Assembly: GCF_040954835.1 (NCBI RefSeq)
Contig: NC_090723.1
Coordinates: 7,698,001-7,762,000, forward strand
Direction of reading: 5' to 3'
Source: Lepisosteus oculatus
Taxonomy: Eukaryota > Chordata > Actinopteri > Semionotiformes > Lepisosteidae
Length of the DNA: 64,000 nt
In this document: one piece after another, positions 1 to 47,755 of the stretch
Layout of the letters: each line of letters begins with the position of its first letter
Numbering within the stretch: position 1 is the stretch's first letter
The notes under the pieces: generated by a model
What the model was told of the DNA's origin: nothing
Databases searched by the model: none
Seen by the model: the letters and a program-made list of their open reading frames with translations, nothing else
Position numbers and translations under genes: made by a program

Positions 1-2059
1 CTTTCTCTGGCTGTGTGTTGTCTTCTGCCTCTCGCAGGCTTGGGCGATGCCTACGAGGTGCGCATTCAGGGAGCATCTGATTGAAGTCAGCCTGAATCTT
101 CTCAAGGACATGGTGAGTCCGAAATCGACTGTTTCTAACCTGGAGATGAATATGCTACTTCTTAAAATTCGATCGGTTGAACGCTTCTGTATTGTTCTCT
201 TGTACATTAAAGGGAGGACATTTCCCGAGAGAGTGCATCAAAGACAACGTGTTGATTACTTTCCCAGCGGAGGTGCTTACCGATGGCTCGCAGGTAAAGG
301 CTGATTCTCTTACCCAAAATACCCGCCGAGCACAGGGACGGCCGTTCACACGTGTGGAGCATCAGAGGCGATTGGCAGATGTCAGTCAGCTCACACGCTG
401 GCAGCGCTTGGAACACGGGTCTGCATTTTTTTTCCGGCTAACGTTTTGTTTTCTTCGTTCGCCCAAACTCAGAATGAAAACATCCAGCCGGTGGTTTACG
501 AAACACTGAGGAGCGTTAACACCCTTTTTCAAAGCGAAGGCAGGCCGTCAACATGGGACCAAAGAAAGCTGGAGGATTTCCAGAGTGTTGTTTTTCGTCA
601 GGTTTCCGACTTCAAGAAATGTGTAAGTTGCACTGAGGCGTGCTTCGAGTTACATTAGCCCCTTTCCTACACACGTTCTGAGATGACTCGACAAGTATGC
701 TTTAGAGCGGTGGGTACTGACAAACAAGGTAAACTTAGTCATAACGTTTTTTAAAAATACAGAAAACAGGCTTTGCAGGATTTTTTAAAGCGAACGCTAC
801 TTTCAGCAGTAACTTGGAGAATTGTGTGTGGAAGTTGGATTCACAACAGCAGGACACGAGTGTGTACGGCTAAATGCACATGGTGACCGTGCACCGGATA
901 TACAGGAAGCCATATTTTATTAATTACGTGCGTTTTACGCTCTGCTTACTTTGAAAGCAAATGTCCATTTGAGGAATCCTGAGGTAAGGTGCAAACCACT
1001 AACCAGTCTGCTTATGATATGCACTATCTTCCATAGTTTTTCTAATCTTTGACAGCGAACGGATAACGTCGAAGCATTCCCTTAAGTTCCAGAACATATG
1101 CTAGGGGCTTTAAAAAGACCATTTTTTTGAAACTGGGCCTTGTTCGGCAAAGTAATTTGTGCAAGGTGCGGCGCGCTTCCAGTTCATAAAGGTCTCAAAA
1201 ACGTCTTTTCAGGCTCTGAGGAATCGGACACGGAGAGAAACATCTTCTGCCAATAACTCGACGGTGCAGCTGAAGACCTACTTTAAGAAAATGGGACGTT
1301 TTCTGGAAGAAAAGGTACCGGCTTGCGTGAAATATCATCTTTTTTTATATAAAGCCAGTTAGCTTTTTTTAAAAGCGTGATTGCTTTTTACTAAATTCCC
1401 TTTGCGGACTTTTTTCGGCAGTCACGCGTGATTCGGGATGAGAGATCCGATCTGCTTCGTGTGTTAAATTGACAGGTCATCGCGTGTTTTCAATACATTT
1501 GGAGTTCAAATCTACCAAAGCAAACGACTGATGTTTGTAATCAGGCCATTGAATAGACGGGTCCTCTCATTTTAAAGGTTTATATCAGTCTGATTGCATT
1601 TAACCTGGTTAGAATTAGGAGCTCTAATGTTTTTGTAGGGTTGAGACTAATGTGGTCATTTCTGGTACGAATACAAACCCAACGGAGGATTTGTCTTTAA
1701 AACTTGAAAATATTACAAGGCGGGAAGTCCTTAATCTTGGTTGCTCTGATGTCACAGCTTACTGATTCGCGGGTACTTTGTTCAAGAGAACGCAGTAATC
1801 TTCATTAGTCTAAGGCTTTAGCATATACTCACTGACTACACCAAACTGGTGTAGATGAACATTATTCACTTCGAAAACACGCATCGAGCACCTTTGTTTT
1901 AGCCACGCAGTATTTACTGCGTTCTAAATTGAGATTTCTTTGTTCCAGAATTACAGTTCCTGCGCCTGGGAAATCACAAGACAAAAACTCATACAGGTCA
2001 TACAAGCCATTCTTGAAAAACAGCATGCAGTCGGAGCGCTCAACGTGGAACACTACTGA
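1..2059 (+). CDS. ifn: Type I interferon A (4-Cys fish type), 5' end cut by window
   Basis: Secreted helical antiviral cytokine that would act through the class II cytokine receptor/JAK-STAT route. Coding exons are 2-112 (in frame from base 2; about five start codons lie outside the window), 213-293, 473-622, 1213-1314 and 1949-2059, all bounded by GT/AG with every intron in phase 0. They give about 189 residues, the usual fish interferon length. Visible parts are the end of a signal peptide (VVFCLSQAWA), then MPTRC with the first mature cysteine, FPREC in exon 2, FKKC at the end of exon 3 and NYSSCAWE at the start of exon 5. The four cysteines place it in the 4-Cys (group II) class. An N-glycosylation sequon (NNST) lies in exon 4. 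Exon 1 is nearly identical to that of gene E while exons 2-4 are not. The family call is secure; the exact subgroup is not. Confidence 0.93.
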
Positions 2060-4923: not shown

Positions 4924-6233
4924 ATGGCTCTGCAGAAATTAGTGACGCTCAGCCTGGTTCTGTTTCTCTCTGTGGAAACGCAGTCTCTGAAATGCACTTG
5001 GTTGGAGCATCAACTGGGAAACATAAACGAGAAAAGTATCCAGGCTTTGAAGGAAATGGTAATACATCTTAACTAAGAAGCTCCACTCCGAATATTAATT
5101 TTATATTCTGTTTATTTTTATATATAACTTAATTTCGTTTTATTTTCCTCTAGGGTGGAGATTTCCCGGTGGAGTGCGTTTCACAAATTATCACCACATT
5201 CCCAGTGGATGCTTTCAAGACAGCTGAAAATGCCAAGGTTAACATTTTTTTAAACTTCAGTTCGATGAAATCAGAACACATTTCTCAATACTCAATACTC
5301 TACAAGCACATATGTATATTCCAGCGTGCATTAGTAATAATTGTTGTTGTTTTTTTCTTCCAGAACGAAGATATTGTACTCACTGGACTAGAGACCATGA
5401 GGTGCGTGCACAACATCTTCAACAAGACTGGGCACCCTGCGACCTGGGAAATCTCTGAACTGGAACGTTTCCAAGGCCTCCTCTACCGCCAGATCAGACA
5501 GCTGACACTTTGTGTAAGTATCTCTTACTGCGTTCGCTCCTCTGTCATTTTAAATGTTATGTGTATACATTATCACACTGAACTATCGCACGATAGAACA
5601 TGTTCAGAATTTTGTGGGTTTAGTTAACTCCAGAATGAAATCTGCTCCGCATTTTTTGAAACTGTAATGGAAGGCTCCACTAAAAGCGAGAAACCGGTAG
5701 ATGGAGAGAATGCAGTGTTGTTATGTAACCTGTGATTCTTGAACCTTAGCTGTCCAGACACTGATCAGACTGTGACACGGAGATGTGAGATTTTTGTTCC
5801 TTGTCCTTTGCAGGCAGGGAGCGAAATGAAATTCTCCGGAGAACCGAATCGCCTCGGCGTCAGCGTGGTTCTGAAGACAAGCTTCGCCAAGCTGGAGAAG
5901 GTCCTGAGAGATAAGGTACCCAATCTGCGAATCATCCGGAACAGGTTTTATTCTTATGATGTGACTTGGTGTCAAGGTGTAGTTGCTTTGTAGTGCAACA
6001 AGCATTTCTCATCAATGTCAGTGACAGTGCGAGATACAGCTTCTCTCTTTCTGCCGGGCTCCAGCACTGCAGCACAGCTGAGCTGGAAACGGACGTGATC
6101 ACCCACGTGACTTTTTAAGACTCGTGTTCTCACCCCCCAGGACTACAGCTACTGCGCGTGGGAGAGCGTGAGGAGGGACCTCCGTCGCGCACTGGAGCAA
6201 TTTCAGGAATTCCTAGAGAGCAACAAGAAGTAA
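4924..6233 (+). CDS. ifn: Type I interferon B, divergent paralogue
   Basis: Secreted antiviral cytokine. Exons are 4924-5058, 5154-5237, 5364-5513, 5814-5915 and 6141-6233, all GT/AG and all phase 0, giving 187 residues. The first 21 or so residues form a hydrophobic signal peptide (MALQKLVTLSLVLFLSVETQS). The four family cysteines are present (LKC, VEC, the last residue of exon 3, and YCAWE in exon 5), plus a fifth, probably unpaired, in MRC within exon 3. The exon 4 sequon shared by the other four copies is missing; an NKT sequon occurs in exon 3 instead. The protein ends in a charged ESNKK tail. It is clearly the most divergent member and may belong to a different subgroup from A, C, D and E. 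The start is chosen because it opens the signal peptide about 150 bases after a TATA box. Confidence 0.93.
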
Positions 6234-13025: not shown

Positions 13026-15024
13026 ATGACACTGAAAGGAGTCCTGTGGCTCTGTGTTTTCTTCTGCCTGCCGCAGGTCCGGTCCAGTCCAAGCAGATGC
13101 ACCTTCAAACAGCGTCTGATTGAAATCAGCCTGCAGCATCTTGATGAGCTGGTGAGACTGGACAGAAATCCATCAAGTTTCGAAACACGGAATCTTTTAT
13201 TATTTAATGACTTTTTTTTTTGCTCTTCCATTTAAGGGAGAACCTTTCTCTAAACACTGCATCAGAGACAACGTTTTAATTCCTTTTCCAAAGGATGCAT
13301 ACACGACTGCTGTGGATTCGCAGGTGAAGTGGAGTCTTTTCTTGGTGCTGCACGATCTCACCAAAGATAACCTAAACCAGTCGCACTTCAGATCAAAATG
13401 AATCGCTCATTCTAATTTTATTTCGTTTGCATGTTGTCACATTTAGCTTTTTTTTTTAATTTACACTCAGAGTAAATCTTTGTCTACATTGTAAGTAGTA
13501 CTGGATGCGAAGGAGAGATGTGCTGTACTTCGTAAATTGGTCTGTTTTGAAACCGCCGGTGAAATTCCAAAAGAAGTTTCTATTAATGTAAATGTCGTGT
13601 AGACTCTCGCCCCGATTCTTGGGTTGCATTTCTCCAACTCGAGTTTTGTTTTCTTTGTTTTCCTGTGCGCAGGGAGAAATACAGCTGGTGGTTTATGAAA
13701 CGCTGAAAAGCATTAACAGCCTTTTTGAGAAGGAAGACACGCCGTCAACATGGAACCAGAGACAACTAGATGACTTTCAGAATATCGTTTTTCGTCAGCA
13801 TCATGAATTCAAGAGATGTGTAAGTTCCAAAACTTAGCGAAAAGCGTGTTACAAGTTATCTGGCTTTTTTTTTACCCACATAGTGTCTGAGATGACTCGG
13901 CAAGTGTGGTTATCACGGCATAAACCCGAAAAAAGGTTAAAAAAAACAGAGAGAAATTGTTCTGAAACATGGACAATTCATGCATTATAATTGTTTTGAA
14001 GAGATCTGGGGAGAATTCTGGGCTGTCGTTTCCACAACCTGTCGCATGACTATGAATTCGATAGTCTCTTACCCAACCACCCACGAGGCTACATGCATTT
14101 CAAATAACATTTTCTTGAAACACGAAACTTCACCTTTAAAATCCCAAGATTCTACCGAGATGAATGGCCGAACATTATTTGCCCCTCAACTCGCTTTGAA
14201 ACGCGCATCCCTTTTCATCTCGTCTTTTGAGTGTCTTGAGTAATGTAATGTTGATCAACATTTACTTGCAAATCCCGATCTTGAAAAGTCTCGCTTAAAC
14301 TTCTGCGCTGTAACGCAGTGACGCTCCACGCAGATCTGATTAACGCTCACGGGTGGCTTGCCTTTTTAAATGTTGGGTGATTGCAGATGAAGAGAAATAA
14401 GGGGAGAAAAAGACTCTCCAATTCCTCATCCGGGGACAGGACTGCGCTGGTGAAGATCTACTTTAAGAAAATGCAAAGAGTTCTGGAAGAAAAGGTATCA
14501 CATTAATCATATTATTGCTGAACTCTGATGGAAAACCTATTTTAAAAATCTATATCTCTGGGTCTATCTAATGTAATTCGTAAATTGTGCGCCTGTTTGG
14601 ATGTAAGTCATATGATTCGTACGTCTTTGGTGTAATCGATACCAAAGTTTTCAAGTAAACTGTTCAACAAGTGGTTGTTAAAAATACCTTGTTTGTCCTA
14701 CAGTTAAGCTTTACTGGTTAAAATTACTTTCTGTTTTAAGTAACAAATCATTGTGAATCTCGTTAACTATACTCTTAAATGTAACTTTATTTTGATATAT
14801 TAATAGTAATTCTAATTTTGTTTTGAATATGTGATCACCTCAAATAAGGCACGTGTACTTTTAGCCCCGAATTGTATTCAGTGCCCTACTTTCTAATTTA
14901 TTTTTCTTATTTCTTTCAGAATTACAGTTCCTGTGCCTGGGAAGTCATACGAAAAGAACTTAGACAGGTTTTACTAATCATCCTGGACCAATTTTCTGAC
15001 GGCTTGCTCAATACAAGCAGATGA
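13026..15024 (+). CDS. ifn: Type I interferon C (4-Cys fish type)
   Basis: Secreted antiviral cytokine. Exons are 13026-13151, 13237-13323, 13673-13819, 14387-14494 and 14920-15024, all phase 0 with GT/AG ends, giving 190 residues. The signal peptide (MTLKGVLWLCVFFCLPQVRS) is followed by SPSRC. The other cysteines are in SKHC (exon 2), FKRC (end of exon 3) and NYSSCAWE (exon 5). Exon 3 carries the typical VVYETLKSINSLFEKE helix. Exon 4 starts with a very basic stretch (MKRNKGRKR) followed by an NSS sequon and the conserved YFKKM helix. Compared with A it is one residue shorter in exon 3. The start codon is the first ATG after the TATA-like box. Confidence 0.94.
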
Positions 15025-18895: not shown

Positions 18896-21100
18896 ATGGA
18901 ACTGAATGGATCCCTGTGGCTTTGCGTTGTCGTTTGCCTCTCGCAAGCTTGGTCGATGCCGACGAAATGCGCCAGATATCAATGGTTTCTGGTTGAAAAA
19001 AGCCTGGACATTCTTGAAAATCTGGTGAGGTCGAAGTATTCACACCTGAAGAAGGCTCCACGGCCGAAACGTTGTTTTCTTTCTTCTCTTTTCAGCATGG
19101 AATAAACCTATTACTTGTTCATATATATATATATTAAAATGTATAGTTGTGCTATTGTTATTTAATTATAAATTAAATCTCTCCTCATGTCATTCATTTT
19201 AAGGGAAAACGTAAGGGAGAAGGTTTCAACGCAGACTGCATCAAGGACAACGTCGTCACCGCTTTCCCTGAAGACGCCTTCTTGCTTGCAGACGACGGCC
19301 AGGTGAAGACCGCTTTTTCCTAGCGCTGCGTGACGTCACGCTGGTGAACAGTATAAACAGTAGGAGTATCTTAACACACGCGGTGACGTCACTCAAGTCA
19401 GCGGCGATTACATTCGTGGTGTTGATGCCGTTCAGAAAGGAGCTCAGATAAATATGATGTGTTGTGCCCGCTGGAGATATAATGAAGTAGCTCAAGTAGG
19501 GAGCCGCATCAGCATGCTTAGGCTGTAAAGGAACAAGTAAAGGTTTATTCCACGTTGAAAAGAGACATAACGTTTCGGGTGTGTGTCGACACCCAAAGAA
19601 GGCTCCACAGCCGAAAAGTTGTTTTCTTTCTTCTTTTCAGCGTGGAATAAATCTTTACTAGTTCCTAGAGATAAAATTGGGTTTGTTTGTTTTTTCCCCC
19701 CTTTCCCCGAACTCAGGAAGAAGACATCCAAGTGATGGTTTATGAAACGCTTCAGAGTATTCAGAGCCTTTTTGAAAAGGGAAGAAAGCCGAAAAAATGG
19801 GACGAATTCCGAGGCATCGTTCACCGGCAGCTTCAAGAATTCAAGACTTGTGTAAGTTCCGAACCGCAAAGACTAGCGGACTAGCAGACTCTGCGAAATG
19901 TATCCGCCTTTCGTACCGACTCAGCAGTGCGCATAACCTACACTGGCATTTGTGTCGATCGCAGGGTCCGAAACACCGATTGGGCAGCGAAACGATCGAC
20001 CCTGAAGATATAAATTCCTCTGATGCCAACAGAAGGACTCTGCTGAAGGCTTACTTTGAGAAAATGAAAAATATTCTAAAAGAAAAGGTAAGACATTATA
20101 ATCTAGGCCCGTCAATAACATTAGAACTATTTGAAGTACAATACAAATCACATAGCTGTGAACAATTTATTATTGTAAGTAGACATAAGAACTAACGTGT
20201 TTTAAAACTAGTTTCTGAAAGTCCATGCGGATTTAAACTTTATGTGACTTGTTAGAGGTAAAACTAAACTTGATGGACAGAATGGTGAGGTTTGTAGTGT
20301 TTATGATGTTATTTTGACATCTTAAATACCAAGAAATGAACAGATGCTTAAGTTCGTGCAGGTAAATCCAGGAGGAACTATCATGTGAGGTCTTTGTGAC
20401 TCTTCATTTTAAGGAAAAGTGGCAACACAAAATGGGTGTTCAAATTGACCTTTTATTCTGATTCTGTAGTCAGTAGTTCGGATAGATTCATGGTAGAGAT
20501 GCATTCAGAAATCAATAACTTCAAGAAACTCTTCTTTCCAGGAATAAAGAGCATACCTTCTTGAGACTTTTCATCTATGACATTGCTTTACTTAGATTGT
20601 CTAATACAACTTTCCTGAGATTTTTAAATATTTACTCTGTAAACCGGGTATGGAACTGGGAGTTTAATAACAGCTCTGATACTCACTGTTAGTATTTACA
20701 AAGTCTGCATGGGAAGTTGTTACTTAGTCATATGTAGCTACCAACGTATGAAGAGATCAGGCTGCAAGAGAGAAATGCTACTTAATTAATTAGTTCAGTT
20801 AACATTATACCATTTACTTTTGTCATTAAATTGCTGTTTTCTGTTTATCAAAAGAAAAACTAGACTGTTTCAAATAGTAGACTTCACAATGGGGTTTTTA
20901 CTTGACAAAGAGTCTTTGGTTTACACAGTTGGGGTTTGCCCACCTTATGTTATTATTCCATTATGTCCTGAATTACTTCTGGCCTTTTTGTCTTTCAGAA
21001 TTACAGACCCTGCGCCTGGGAAGTCATTAGGAAAGAACTCAGGTTGACCTTTTATGCCCTGCTAGACAATATTGACAGCTTACCCGGGGCACGTTCATAA
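18896..21100 (+). CDS. ifn: Type I interferon D (4-Cys fish type)
   Basis: Secreted antiviral cytokine. Exons are 18896-19024, 19216-19302 (or from 19204), 19717-19851, 19965-20087 and 20999-21100, all phase 0, giving 191 (or 195) residues. The signal peptide (MELNGSLWLCVVVCLSQAWS) is followed by MPTKC. Other cysteines are NADC (exon 2), FKTC (end of exon 3) and NYRPCAWE (exon 5). Exon 3 is five residues shorter than in A, B and E: the loop between the two helices is reduced to KPKKWDEFRG. Exon 4 has a longer acidic N-terminal part with an NSS sequon before YFEKM. Two in-frame AG acceptors 12 bases apart precede exon 2; paralogue alignment favours the second. Introns 1 and 2 contain related MITE-like repeats. 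Confidence 0.93.
19041..19121 (+). repeat. Half copy of a MITE-like repeat in intron 1 of interferon D
   Basis: Contains CCTGAAGAAGGCTCCAC, then a long pyrimidine run ending in TTTTCAG (19,088-19,095) and AATAAA (19,101-19,106). It matches the right half of the element at 19530-19666. Confidence 0.7.
19530..19666. mobile_element. MITE-like element with inverted ends, intron 2 of interferon D
   Basis: The left arm (19,530-19,577) and right arm (19,611-19,666) are imperfect inverted repeats of about 45 bases. The right arm carries a pyrimidine tract plus CAG (to 19,640) and AATAAA (19,646-19,651) in the sense direction of the host gene. No transposase is encoded. Confidence 0.65.
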
Positions 21101-24528: not shown

Positions 24529-25993
24529 ATGGCACTGGAAGGCTCCCTGTGGCTGTGTGTTGTCTTCTGCCTCTCGCAGGCTTGGGCGATGCCTACGAGG
24601 TGCGCATTCAGAGAGCATCTGATTGAAGTCAGCCTGAATCTTCTCAAAGACATGGTGAGTCCAAAGAGAATGGTATTCAAGTATAAAAATATGCCGAAAG
24701 TGTCATTTACATTTGGTTATAATAGCTTTACGTTCTGTGTTTTAAGGGAGACGGTTTCCCCAAAGAGTGCCTCAGTGATAACGTAGTTATCGCTTTCCCA
24801 GCGGAAGCGTATGAGTTTGCGGATGATACCCAGGTAAAGACAGCTTCTTTTTACATTTTTGCCTTTTGATATGGGCGATATCATTCACATGTACTACTGG
24901 ACATACGTGGTTTATACGTAGATATAATGATACGTAGAAAATAGCAGATTTTAAATGAAATGACAGAGATTAATTCCAAGACGAACAAAATAACCTGTGA
25001 AATCCTCTTCAGGTGTGTATACAGATATGCAATATATGCTGTATGTATATTATATATGAAATACAGATATAATTTCATTGTTGGTCTCGGCTTGAAATGT
25101 TGCGGCGATTTTAAAATACTTTTCAAAATAAAGACCAAGTGTTGGTTGGTGATTACAGCTCTAAACGTTTCTTTTCCGAAACACAGAAAGAAGACTTTGA
25201 GATAGCAATTTACAAAACACTGAACAGCACAGACGCCCTGTTTGAAAACGAAGGAAGGCCAACTTCATGGGGCCAGAGAGCAGTGGACGAATTTCAGAAC
25301 CTCGTTTTTCGCCAGGTTCAAGATTTCAATACCTGTGTAAGTTCCAGATACAAACAGCCGTCGTCTCTTTAACGTGAGCCGCTAAAGTACGGTCTAGCAG
25401 GAGCAAATACTCCAAAAACGTGCATGATAGCGGAACTTGTGTGATCTCTTGAAATCAAATTTTAACAATCTGGACTAAGACACGACCAGACCCTGAAGAA
25501 AATCGTATAGGCTGTTGTTTGCTCTGGAGCCAATGAAAGAACGTCTTGATTTCACTGAGGCCTGGATATTAAACCAGAAATTAAATAAGTCCTATGCGTT
25601 CCTATTCGCTATTGAGTGTAGCGAATGGCTCCTATCCTTAGACTTGCAGGAGATCTTAAACGAGAGCACCCTGTGTTGATTTCAGGTCCCGGGGATTCGG
25701 GAAGACGTAGAAACGACCGGCAACTCATCTGCTGCTTACAGGATAACGCTCCTGAAGACGTACTTTCAGAAAATGGAAAATGTTCTGCAAGAAAAGGTAT
25801 TTAAGATGTTTATTTCAAAGTATATATACAGTATATAAAACCTTGCATTGTGGTCTGTTTTCCTAATTGCTGGCCTGTTTGTTCCCCCCTCCAGAATTAC
25901 AGTTCCTGCGCCTGGGAAATCATAAGAAAAGAACTCTTGGGGATTTTACAAGTCATCCTCGATAAGAACGCTGAAATCGTGGTCAGGGCATGA
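24529..25993 (+). CDS. ifn: Type I interferon E (4-Cys fish type)
   Basis: Secreted antiviral cytokine. Exons are 24529-24654, 24747-24833, 25187-25336, 25686-25796 and 25895-25993, all phase 0, giving 190 residues. The signal peptide (MALEGSLWLCVVFCLSQAWA) is followed by MPTRC. The other cysteines are in PKEC (exon 2), FNTC (end of exon 3) and NYSSCAWE (exon 5). An NSS sequon lies in exon 4 before TYFQKM. An in-frame upstream ATG at 24511 lies across a TTTCAG acceptor (24,514-24,519), so it probably belongs to a 5' UTR intron; the start at 24529 matches the paralogues. Exon 1 is nearly identical to that of gene A. Confidence 0.95.
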
Positions 25994-28235: not shown

Positions 28236-30079
28236 TCAACTGCCATGGTCTTGACTAAAGACAAAAAAAAAAGAAAAACATGATTTCATTAAGCCTACAT
28301 GACTGCTATGTAAAAATCTAGTGTTCAAAAAGCCCAACAGCCATAAGCATTGTGTTCTGTGTCTGAAAAGAGTCAATTCACTCATGCACTGAGCAGAAGA
28401 AATAGTTTGTTGAGCAAAAGACAGTCATTGCTAAGTTTATTGACATTTATTGACCACCGATTTATCATTACAAGTGGTGAAGACTTGCAAAGCAAAATAA
28501 GTTATTTTTGTATTCTTTTGCAGAATACACCATGATTGTGCAAAACCTGTTACATCAGAGCGAAATGTCCTTGATAAGGGCACGCAGGTGGAGGAAAAGC
28601 AGATGGGTGAGATTTAGGAAATGAAGATGGCATTTCCTTTTGATACAAAACAGAGGGAACATTTCATCCCCATGTGAAAATAAACTGATTTGAAAAGCAA
28701 CATTGGGTCTTACAGAAAGCCAAGGACCGGGGTTTTCAAACAATGCAAAACAAATTAGACTTGGCAGTCCATGAAAACTTCACTTTGTTTCAAGCAATGC
28801 TCCTGCCAGTGTCATAAAACAAAGGTGAAGAAGCAGATTTCCACTTACCTGGTGTGAGCCCTGCGGAATATCTCCTCTGAAGAAGAAGAGGCACACGCAC
28901 TTTGACCTAGACTCTTCCGACGAAGGTACCCAAGGGGCTTGTGTAGATCTTCAATCCAGAGTGGCTTCATCTTTGGGACATATTCACGACACGCAATCTG
29001 CAAGAAGTATTTGTAGGTTTAAACTACATCAAATATTTTATTGAATTATAGAATTTAAACTATGTAACCATTATCTATTTACTGTATAAGGAACAATTAG
29101 AGGTTGCTTTGCAGTTCAAATGCTGATGTAGTTCCCCACTCAAACCTGTACTATATACTAGTGTCATTGAAATTGGGGTTTAATCCTGAGCAGGCTTTAC
29201 ATTATTGACTTACCTTACCAGTCAGTCAAGACTAGCACCCCAGATCTTCACCTGCCCACCCTACCAGAGTGCCGAGTCATGGTCAGCACCCCAGATCTTC
29301 ACCTGCCCACCCTACGAGAGTGTTGAGTCATGGTCAGCACCCCAAATACTCACCTGCCCACCTTACCAGAGTGCCGAGTCACGGTCAGCACCCCAGATCC
29401 TCACCTGCCCACCCTACCAGAGTGCCGAGTCACAGTCAGCACCCCAGATCCTCACCTGCCCACCCTAACAGAATGGTAAGTCGAGGCAAGTGTGAAAGTG
29501 GTCTTGCACAAGTATTTTGAATAATGCATAAAAACTGGAATATCTTACCTCTTGATCTGATTCTTGTAGGAGTTGCCCATTTTCTTGCAAATATTTTGTC
29601 TCTGACCTTGAAAATTAAAGTCATTTATCAGAAGAGCTGTTATTTAACCACTAAAACTTGAATCATCCTCACTACCCAAGTAGTGATAAGTTACTTTGAA
29701 ATGAACATGTGGCATCTACTTTTCTTTAAAAGACAGCAATCATAATTAGATTTATATTTATCAAAGAATGATGAATAAACATAACTATTAAAAGGCATTT
29801 AAACACGATCGAAGATTTTTATATACCTACCAGATAACTTTTGTTTTTTTTTCTTGTGAGCTGGCTTATTTTTGGATGAGGTTCTCATAGGAGCAGCCTA
29901 AAAAATGCAATGCATTAGAAAAATTATGGGATAAAACAAAACCTCTCCCAGACTTTTCTTCTAGCAATGAGGCCAAAACAAACCCTTACTTTTGTTTCAA
30001 TAAAGGGTCTAATGTAGGTGTGATGCTTTCTTGAGGTGGCAGAACACCATGAAGGGCGTTAGAGTTGGTGTAAATGAAC
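28236..30079 (-). CDS. Unrecognised gene, 3' half (five linked exons)
   Basis: I do not recognise this protein. Exons that join in one frame on the - strand are 30079-29990, then 29897-29831 (or from 29883, which keeps the frame with the exon before), 29606-29549, 28997-28849 and 28254-28236. Each has good splice ends, and the phases fit (exon 29897 ends in phase 1, 29606 in phase 0, 28997 in phase 2). The encoded tail is lysine-rich (HKKKKQKLS), then acidic and glutamine-rich, then a well-conserved-looking segment (MKPLWIEDLHKPLGYLRR), a serine-rich run and a TGA at 28238-28236. No membrane segment or enzyme motif is seen. It is probably an intracellular or nuclear protein. It lies just downstream of rdm1 on the same strand. 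The 30079-29990 exon and its join are the least certain part. Confidence 0.6.
29230..29478. repeat. 51-bp minisatellite, nearly five units
   Basis: Near-identical units containing CAGCACCCCAGATC and CACCTGCCCACC. It lies in an intron of the unrecognised - strand gene. The 17-residue repeat it encodes in + frame one is a by-product of the 51-base period (a multiple of three). Confidence 0.9.
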
Positions 30080-45515: not shown

Positions 45516-47755
45516 CTACAGAGTGCAGTTGCTCTCCACAAAGCGTCTGCACTTCATCACTTTCAGATAAGTCTCCACTTTGTGCATGTCTTTCTTGAAA
45601 CAAGCTAAAAGCCCGTAGTTCTTCATCAGAGCGTCGTCGTTTCTCAGGTTGGTGTCAAACTTCTCATACGTGAGAGTCAGGAAGGCTGCAATTCTGGGGC
45701 TTCCCTCATCAATTTCCTTTTAAAAAAAGAAGAAAAAATATCTTATACATATACGTACAGTTAGGATTGCATAAGATTTGAGGAGAAGCTTGCCTCTAGG
45801 GACTTTCGGACGTCCCTGTGAAAAAAGCACTGATGAAAGTCACTGGACGAAGCTGGAATTTGCAAATACAAATCCGTTGCTCACCCCTTCTTCAGAGCAT
45901 TTACAGGGAAACATCAGCTTTCCTGTCCAATTCCAAGTCAAGGTCTCATCTCTGCCAGTAATCTCAATACAGTTTTCCCACTAAGTGCTCTCCCTTGTAC
46001 TTTCCCTGTATGCATCCTTGAGGATGTGCAGTAATTGTACTTCATTTGTGCTAAAACACCTACTGAATTATCGTGGGCACAAGCATAGATGTTTGGCTTT
46101 ACTCAGTGGTTCAAATTGCTGAAAATATTTCAGAAGCGTGCATTCTCTACAGGATTTAAGCAGAGCCTCTCCTTCCTCTTACCCTTGTGAGGGTCACGAT
46201 CCCTCGCTCAAGGTCCTGCAGCTTCTCAAAGATCCTGTCGGAAGTGCCGAAGACTAGGCTGTTGGAGAACACCCGGCTCAGAGTCTGCAGAGGGCTGATC
46301 CAGGACTGGATGAGAGCCAGGGAGAATCTCAGCAGCTCCACATCCTGGAAGGAAAATGGAGCAATAAAAAAAAAAATCCATGTGCTGAATAGACACGCAC
46401 GCGGAGATGTACATGTTATCTTTCTGCATATCCCTAAACCGTGTCTCGAAGCTGAAAGAGAGCGACCGTGATTCCAAGGACAATCCCAAGATGGATTGGT
46501 GTAAGTCAGACTCCCAGGAAATCCTGTCAGCGATAAAATATGTAAGCAGAAAAAGCATGAAGATATTGTGAGATATTCTCCATGGCAAACGGATGTCAGT
46601 AGGGCAAGCCGTGGAATGGCCAGCTGAGCAATAAAGACCCTATGCGTAGCGGTAAAGGAGGGCAACACAGAGGTTAGCCCAGACTCAGGGGGTCAGATAA
46701 GATCACTTTATTGGCCATATACAATTTCTTGCATTAGGAATTAATCTTTTCGCATACCCCAGCTTGCTCTCCATGAGACACACAGACAGGGAGAGAAGCT
46801 GGGGGTCAGAGTGCAGGGTCAGCCATGTATACAGCACCCCTGGAGCAGTTGGGGTTAAGGGCCTTGCTCAGGGGCCCAACAGAGTAGGATTCCTCTGCCA
46901 GCTGTGGGATTTGAACCGGCAACCTTCCAGTCACAGGCGAAGAGGGACGAAGAGGAGATGTAACAACTTACAGATCTCTGCTGAGCTTCGTCTTTGCCAG
47001 TGGGTGCAGGAATGGACTCAGAATAGCATATGGCGGATGGAGAACTTTTGCTTGACTGTCTCTGCTCTTCTGGCACGTAGGTGCGCTCCTGTACAGATGT
47101 GAGAAAATATACATTTTTAAAACATGCTAGAATCCAGACAGAATTGCTATATTCGGAGAAGCATCAGCTTGAGCTGCTTCAAGAAAAGGGCTCAGACATA
47201 GGTGTGCAATCACAAGGATTGAAATATTAGAGGGGATGATAGAGATGTTAACAGCCTCTGTTGAATAGAAGAACTAAAACAATTGCCGACTCACAAAATC
47301 TTTGTAAATATCAGCCGCAAGCTGGTGGAGGTGCTGTGCTCTCATCACTGCATTGGTGAAGAGGCTGTACAGTGGAAATGCTCCCACTTCCACTGGTGAC
47401 ATGAAAAAGACAGCGAGCAGAACCGGACACAGCAAAAAGCCTGGAGTGGAAAATACAGGCATAAAGACACAATAGCAATAAATTAGTTAGATTGAGTTGC
47501 TCCAACTACGCTCCTCCATAGATGGGCCCTACTTGACGGTGACGTTTCCGATGAGCATGCAAATTGCAGAGAAGTCAAGGCAGTAGCTGTCTTGTCATTT
47601 TTTTAGAAGTGTTTCTATTTATTGCATACTCCTTTACTGTTACTTGTCAGAATAACAGAGACATCACCATGTAATTTCCATATTTCATCAGTAAAACTGT
47701 TTCCAACGCTCAATAAAAAAGATCAATCAAATTGAAAATCCTTACCTGATGCCAT
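45516..47755 (-). CDS. gh1: Growth hormone (somatotropin), complete
   Basis: Pituitary class I cytokine hormone acting through the growth hormone receptor to drive growth and metabolism. Five exons, as in tetrapods: 47755-47746 (10 coding bases), 47440-47295, 47088-46972, 46344-46183 and 45716-45516, giving 211 residues. The signal peptide ([24 protein letters not shown]) is followed by mature [20 protein letters not shown]. The four disulfide cysteines are present: [23 protein letters not shown] and ESNCTL. A C-terminal N-C-T sequon is typical of fish. Exon 4 holds the [17 protein letters not shown] helix. It has five exons, unlike the six-exon gene of many teleosts. The sequence is close to non-teleost ray-finned fish hormones as I remember them. 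All splice ends are GT/AG and frames join without a break. Confidence 0.98.
46694..46940 (-). mobile_element. tRNA-derived SINE, copy 3, in gh1 intron 3
   Basis: Same family as 21831-22117, with the ATCTTAT end at the left and the head cut short at the right. It comes to within about 30 bases of the gh1 exon 3 donor. Confidence 0.85.

Follow-up and report, generated by a model that had tools for sequence, protein, structure and literature searches.

How have two tandem interferon genes come to be nearly identical over most of one exon, when they are strongly diverged over the rest of their coding sequence? The question is raised by a 64-kb stretch of the Lepisosteus oculatus genome (contig NC_090723.1, positions 7,698,001 to 7,762,000; hereafter the window), which carries five type I interferon genes, here called A to E, arranged in tandem and all on the plus strand. 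A layout of five exons and four introns was found in all five, with GT-AG introns and an open frame, gene A lacking its first bases. All five proteins match PF00143, the interferon alpha/beta domain, above its cutoff (78.8-112.2 bits against a cutoff of 26.8). A five-exon structure is described for bony-fish interferon genes in the available portions of two papers (PMC5332411, PMC5127012), and A to E are intron-containing fish type I interferons. The gene models are as follows.

1 to 112, plus strand: exon 1 of gene A, recognised by its frame, its GTGAGT donor and the PF00143 match of the spliced protein; the 5' end lies beyond the window, and the exon holds most of the predicted signal peptide and helix A.
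213-293, 473-622, 1213-1314 and 1949-2059, plus strand: exons 2-5 of gene A, modelled from GT-AG introns and an open frame (PF00143 E=1.8e-31).
4924 to 6233, plus strand: gene B, a five-exon type I interferon that is divergent and was taken as the outgroup in comparisons.
13026 to 15024, plus strand: gene C, a five-exon type I interferon that pairs with A in exons 2-5 (bootstrap 78).
18896 to 21100, plus strand: gene D, a five-exon type I interferon.
24529 to 25993, plus strand: gene E, a five-exon type I interferon with exons at 24529-24654, 24747-24833, 25187-25336, 25686-25796 and 25895-25993.

By sequence, the solved structure closest to E is 'Type I interferon 2' (3piw, E=2.9e-33), which we take to be zebrafish IFN-phi2. 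Residue 2 of 3piw aligns with residue 21 of E, and the mature part of exon 1 matches the amino-terminal stretch of the structure, presumably helix A. One scan of viral_contigs found no relatives of protein E. Exon 3 of gene B (5364-5513) encodes an additional cysteine (MRCVH) beyond the four common to A, C, D and E, and past the conserved tryptophan exon 3 of gene D (19717-19851) has five codons fewer than its counterparts in A, B and E. A short element that resembles a dispersed repeat, GAAGGCTCCAC-GCCGAAA-GTTGTTTTC...TGGAATAAA, occurs twice in gene D in similar form, at 19048-19110 in intron 1 and at 19595-19655 in intron 2. For placing the locus, 20 other open reading frames of the window were scanned with Pfam. 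Somatotropin-family (growth-hormone-like) exons lie downstream of the interferon cluster on the minus strand (45519-47486; one with E=5.2e-13, three weak and below cutoff), and at 29234-29472 a 51-bp unit is repeated 4.7 times in tandem (91% matches).

The likeness between A and E was delimited by setting A 1-160 against E 24,543-24,702 without gaps. Mismatches fall at bases 3, 4, 7, 70, 106, 121 and 124-127 and are frequent thereafter, which leaves one shared tract in each gene, the two matched stretches being separated by 24 kb.

8 to 120, plus strand: shared tract in gene A, 113 bp with two mismatches to E (bases 70 and 106), from the ungapped comparison and the permutation tests.
24550 to 24662, plus strand: shared tract in gene E, probably the donor copy, from the ungapped comparison.

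The tract comprises most of exon 1 and the first 8 bases of intron 1. Over exon 1 as a whole, A and E agree at 106 of 111 bases and at 36 of 37 residues, with F (A) against S (E) at the odd one; the two coding mismatches within the tract are both synonymous (2.0 synonymous and 0 nonsynonymous over 35 codons). The initial annotation, made from the sequence alone, had reported two base differences up to the end of the exon and a single differing residue among 37, and our counts agree (2 of 105 over bases 8-112). It had also described the homogeneity as confined to the signal peptide and first helix; this stands insofar as the tract covers most of exon 1, and needs amending at both ends, since the match enters intron 1 by 8 bases and apparently starts within exon 1, at about base 8.

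Beyond the tract the two genes are far apart. Over exons 2-5 together, identity is 67% at the DNA level (141 differences among 429 coding positions) and 48% at the protein level; exon by exon, from 2 to 5, DNA identity is 70, 68, 59 and 72% and protein identity 56, 48, 41 and 47%. The strong divergence noted earlier for exon 2, exon 3 and intron 1, with exon 3 proteins about half identical, is thus borne out, exon 3 protein identity being 48% and mismatches in intron 1 being frequent past base 127. After exon 1, the lowest proportion of synonymous differences between A and E is that of exon 5 (pS 0.26), and the DNA of the CAWE region is alike at the start of this exon. A second A/E tract at this point was considered and is not claimed, the permutation scan giving just the best segment per pair. 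Elsewhere, A resembles C (71%) over exon 3 together with the end of intron 2 and the beginning of intron 3 (443-702 against 13643-13911), and A and C may be sisters or may have exchanged sequence there.

Chance is a poor explanation of the A/E tract. Every block of 105 A/E columns in exons 2-5 has at least 18 differences, against 2 in the tract. The conversion-tract test that had been proposed for these genes was run as a GENECONV-style permutation test on the concatenated exons, with columns assumed exchangeable. The longest run of identity between A and E spans 26 polymorphic sites when genes A, C, D and E are used and 39 when all five are used, and neither run was matched in 200,000 permutations, the largest shuffled A/E runs being 22-24 and 33-38 sites, respectively. 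Among the 10 gene pairs, each given 3,000 permutations, A/E alone passes Bonferroni correction (0 of 3,000), and C/D (87) and B/D (96) fail. Because the test assumes exchangeable columns, the other gene pairs serve as a control for constraint specific to the exon. Over the same 105 columns, A and C differ at 30, A and D at 32, C and E at 29, D and E at 30, and C and D at 36, and on this last count we rejected conservation of exon 1 across the family. The same holds for the protein, in which C and D are just 48% identical over exon 1 and A agrees with C at 19 of 37 residues and with D at 22 of 37.

A conserved family exon having been set aside, purifying selection acting on A and E alone might, without any exchange of DNA, have preserved the signal peptide and helix A. 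The low protein agreement of A with its paralogues C and D, and of these with each other, speaks against this; both coding differences in the tract are synonymous, as selection on the protein would have it. Since protein constraint could mimic conversion, silent sites were examined on their own. By the NG86 method, A and E differ at 4.0 of 24.7 synonymous sites in exon 1 (pS 0.16) and at 40.2 of 95.3 in exons 2-5 (pS 0.42; Fisher p=0.03, on rounded counts over the whole exon). Synonymous divergence is therefore not equal across the exons, an equality which the initial annotation had set against gene conversion, and the deficit in exon 1 is of moderate significance. Codons that encode the same residue in both genes (Met and Trp excluded) behave likewise, with 3 of 32 differing in exon 1 against 19 of 65 in exons 2-5 (p=0.038); for the tract alone the count is 2 of 31 (p=0.016), with the tract limits having been set after viewing the data. 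The other five pairs among A, C, D and E differ at a pooled fraction of 0.33 of such codons in exon 1. The silent sites are few and give moderate evidence for excess identity between A and E, and the moderate strength of these silent-only tests leaves selection on A and E some room. Against it stand the greater likeness of the silent sites themselves, the continuation of the match for 8 bases into the intron, and the want of any RNA-structure signal that could account for silent constraint (fold z of +1.0 in A and +0.9 in E). An RNA-structure cause was rejected on the same values; exon 1 of D reaches z=-2.0, but D is outside the tract. We regard selection confined to A and E as improbable.

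Trees are weakly in line with conversion, as A joins E in exon 1 and C in exons 2-5. In the tree of exons 2-5, ((A,C)78,E)93, gene D falls outside the group. Of 15 topologies, 8 are rejected by the AU test; those with A+E are not among them, their AU values being 0.14-0.28. For exon 1, A and E group at a bootstrap of 59 with a branch to E of near-zero length, and none of the 15 topologies is rejected. Site patterns are clearer than the trees. The split AE|CD is supported at 8 sites of the tract and 14 of exons 2-5, AC|DE at 0 and 16, and AD|CE at 0 and 8. A grouping in exon 1 unlike that of exons 2-5 is suggested by these comparisons.

A short interlocus gene conversion is very probably the best explanation of the A/E tract, because its right edge is sharp, its left edge is probable, silent differences are fewer within it and no comparable conservation is seen in C or D. 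On these same grounds the gene conversion first put forward in the initial annotation is supported. About 113 bp would have been copied between the tandem genes E and A, starting within the signal-peptide codons and stopping 8 bases past the end of exon 1, and the two synonymous coding differences would have arisen afterwards. The right edge, at 120/121, is firm. The left edge lies at the start of the window, where the first 7 bases hold 3 mismatches (bases 3, 4 and 7), and a boundary near base 8 is probable from the sequence. Conversion without crossover is recognised by a short tract bounded on both sides, and the route of recombination would be homology-directed repair of this kind.

The left edge also bears on an unequal crossover or exon swap, which would have carried the promoter and exon 1 of E to A and left one junction in intron 1. 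Such an event would agree with a right edge just within intron 1, and it draws some latitude from the upstream flank of A being beyond the window. The chance of at least 3 mismatches in 7 bases is, however, P=0.0002 at the mismatch rate of the tract and 0.009 at the upper confidence bound of that rate. Over bases 2-7, moreover, where six bases can be aligned, D is identical to E, C departs from both at two positions, and A has three mismatches whichever of C, D and E it is set against. The exon-swapping recombination that had been offered beside gene conversion is accordingly disfavoured, on few bases at the edge of the window, and we hold it to be very unlikely. Least likely of all is an assembly or haplotype error that set an E-like exon 1 at A; the tract does adjoin the start of the window, but the two copies differ at 2 tract bases and near both edges, and A has an intact reading frame and splice donor.

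Under gene conversion, E is the more likely donor and A the recipient. The direction is favoured by 2.2 log units unscaled and 1.4 scaled, from distances that are not independent of one another, and a transfer from E to A is therefore weakly indicated as the probable one; the donor may instead have been a third gene, beyond the window. Divergence within the tract is 2 of 105 positions, or 1.9% (95% CI 0.2-6.7%), against 33% in exons 2-5. The conversion is hence young relative to the split between the A and E paralogues, and the earlier description of it as recent holds in this relative sense, with no date in years attached.

Conversion among type I interferons is already known in mammals, and the A/E case would add a fish example with introns. 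In pigs, GENECONV detected gene conversion among the IFNA, IFND and IFNW genes; among the matches listed, tracts measured 132-499 bp, and conversions in porcine IFND involve the open reading frame and the 3' region, according to the available part of that paper (PMC4221479). A paper on the bovine locus, in the part available, cites type I interferon gene conversion for several other mammals (PMC2680415). Like these mammalian cases, the A/E case combines clustered paralogues with a tract on the order of one to several hundred bases, detected by GENECONV or, for A and E, by a test of its kind. The mammalian genes are intronless, as stated in the accessible text of a further paper (PMC5127012), whereas A and E have introns, are one-third diverged, and share a tract that makes up most of one exon. 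Gene conversion is likewise named as a force that may drive IFN1 evolution in a paper that discusses concerted evolution of IFN1 lineages (PMC6640115); in A and E a single bounded tract could be located, as opposed to homogenisation of the whole gene. Among the matches listed from the open-licence literature, no title or abstract opening mentioned exon-limited conversion in fish type I interferons.

As predicted from their sequences, the signal peptides of A and E are nearly the same, judged from the visible part of that of A, and helix A is shared; the remainder of the two proteins differs. That the two share a secretion signal and helix A, as had been proposed at the outset, is true of their sequences (36 of 37 residues), and any effect of the shared exon 1 on secretion or receptor binding may be supposed from this likeness. 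Conversion could have been repeatedly targeted to exon 1, or retained there, such that distinct interferons share a module for secretion and receptor contact while the rest of each protein diversifies. We think this improbable; if true, conversion directed at exon 1 would be a form of natural domain swapping in intron-containing interferons. Trees or probes based on exon 1 could misgroup A and E. The locus offers a clean and small case of exchange between diverged, intron-containing interferon paralogues, and if selection keeps the tract, A and E would constitute a natural experiment on the contribution of the signal peptide and helix A.
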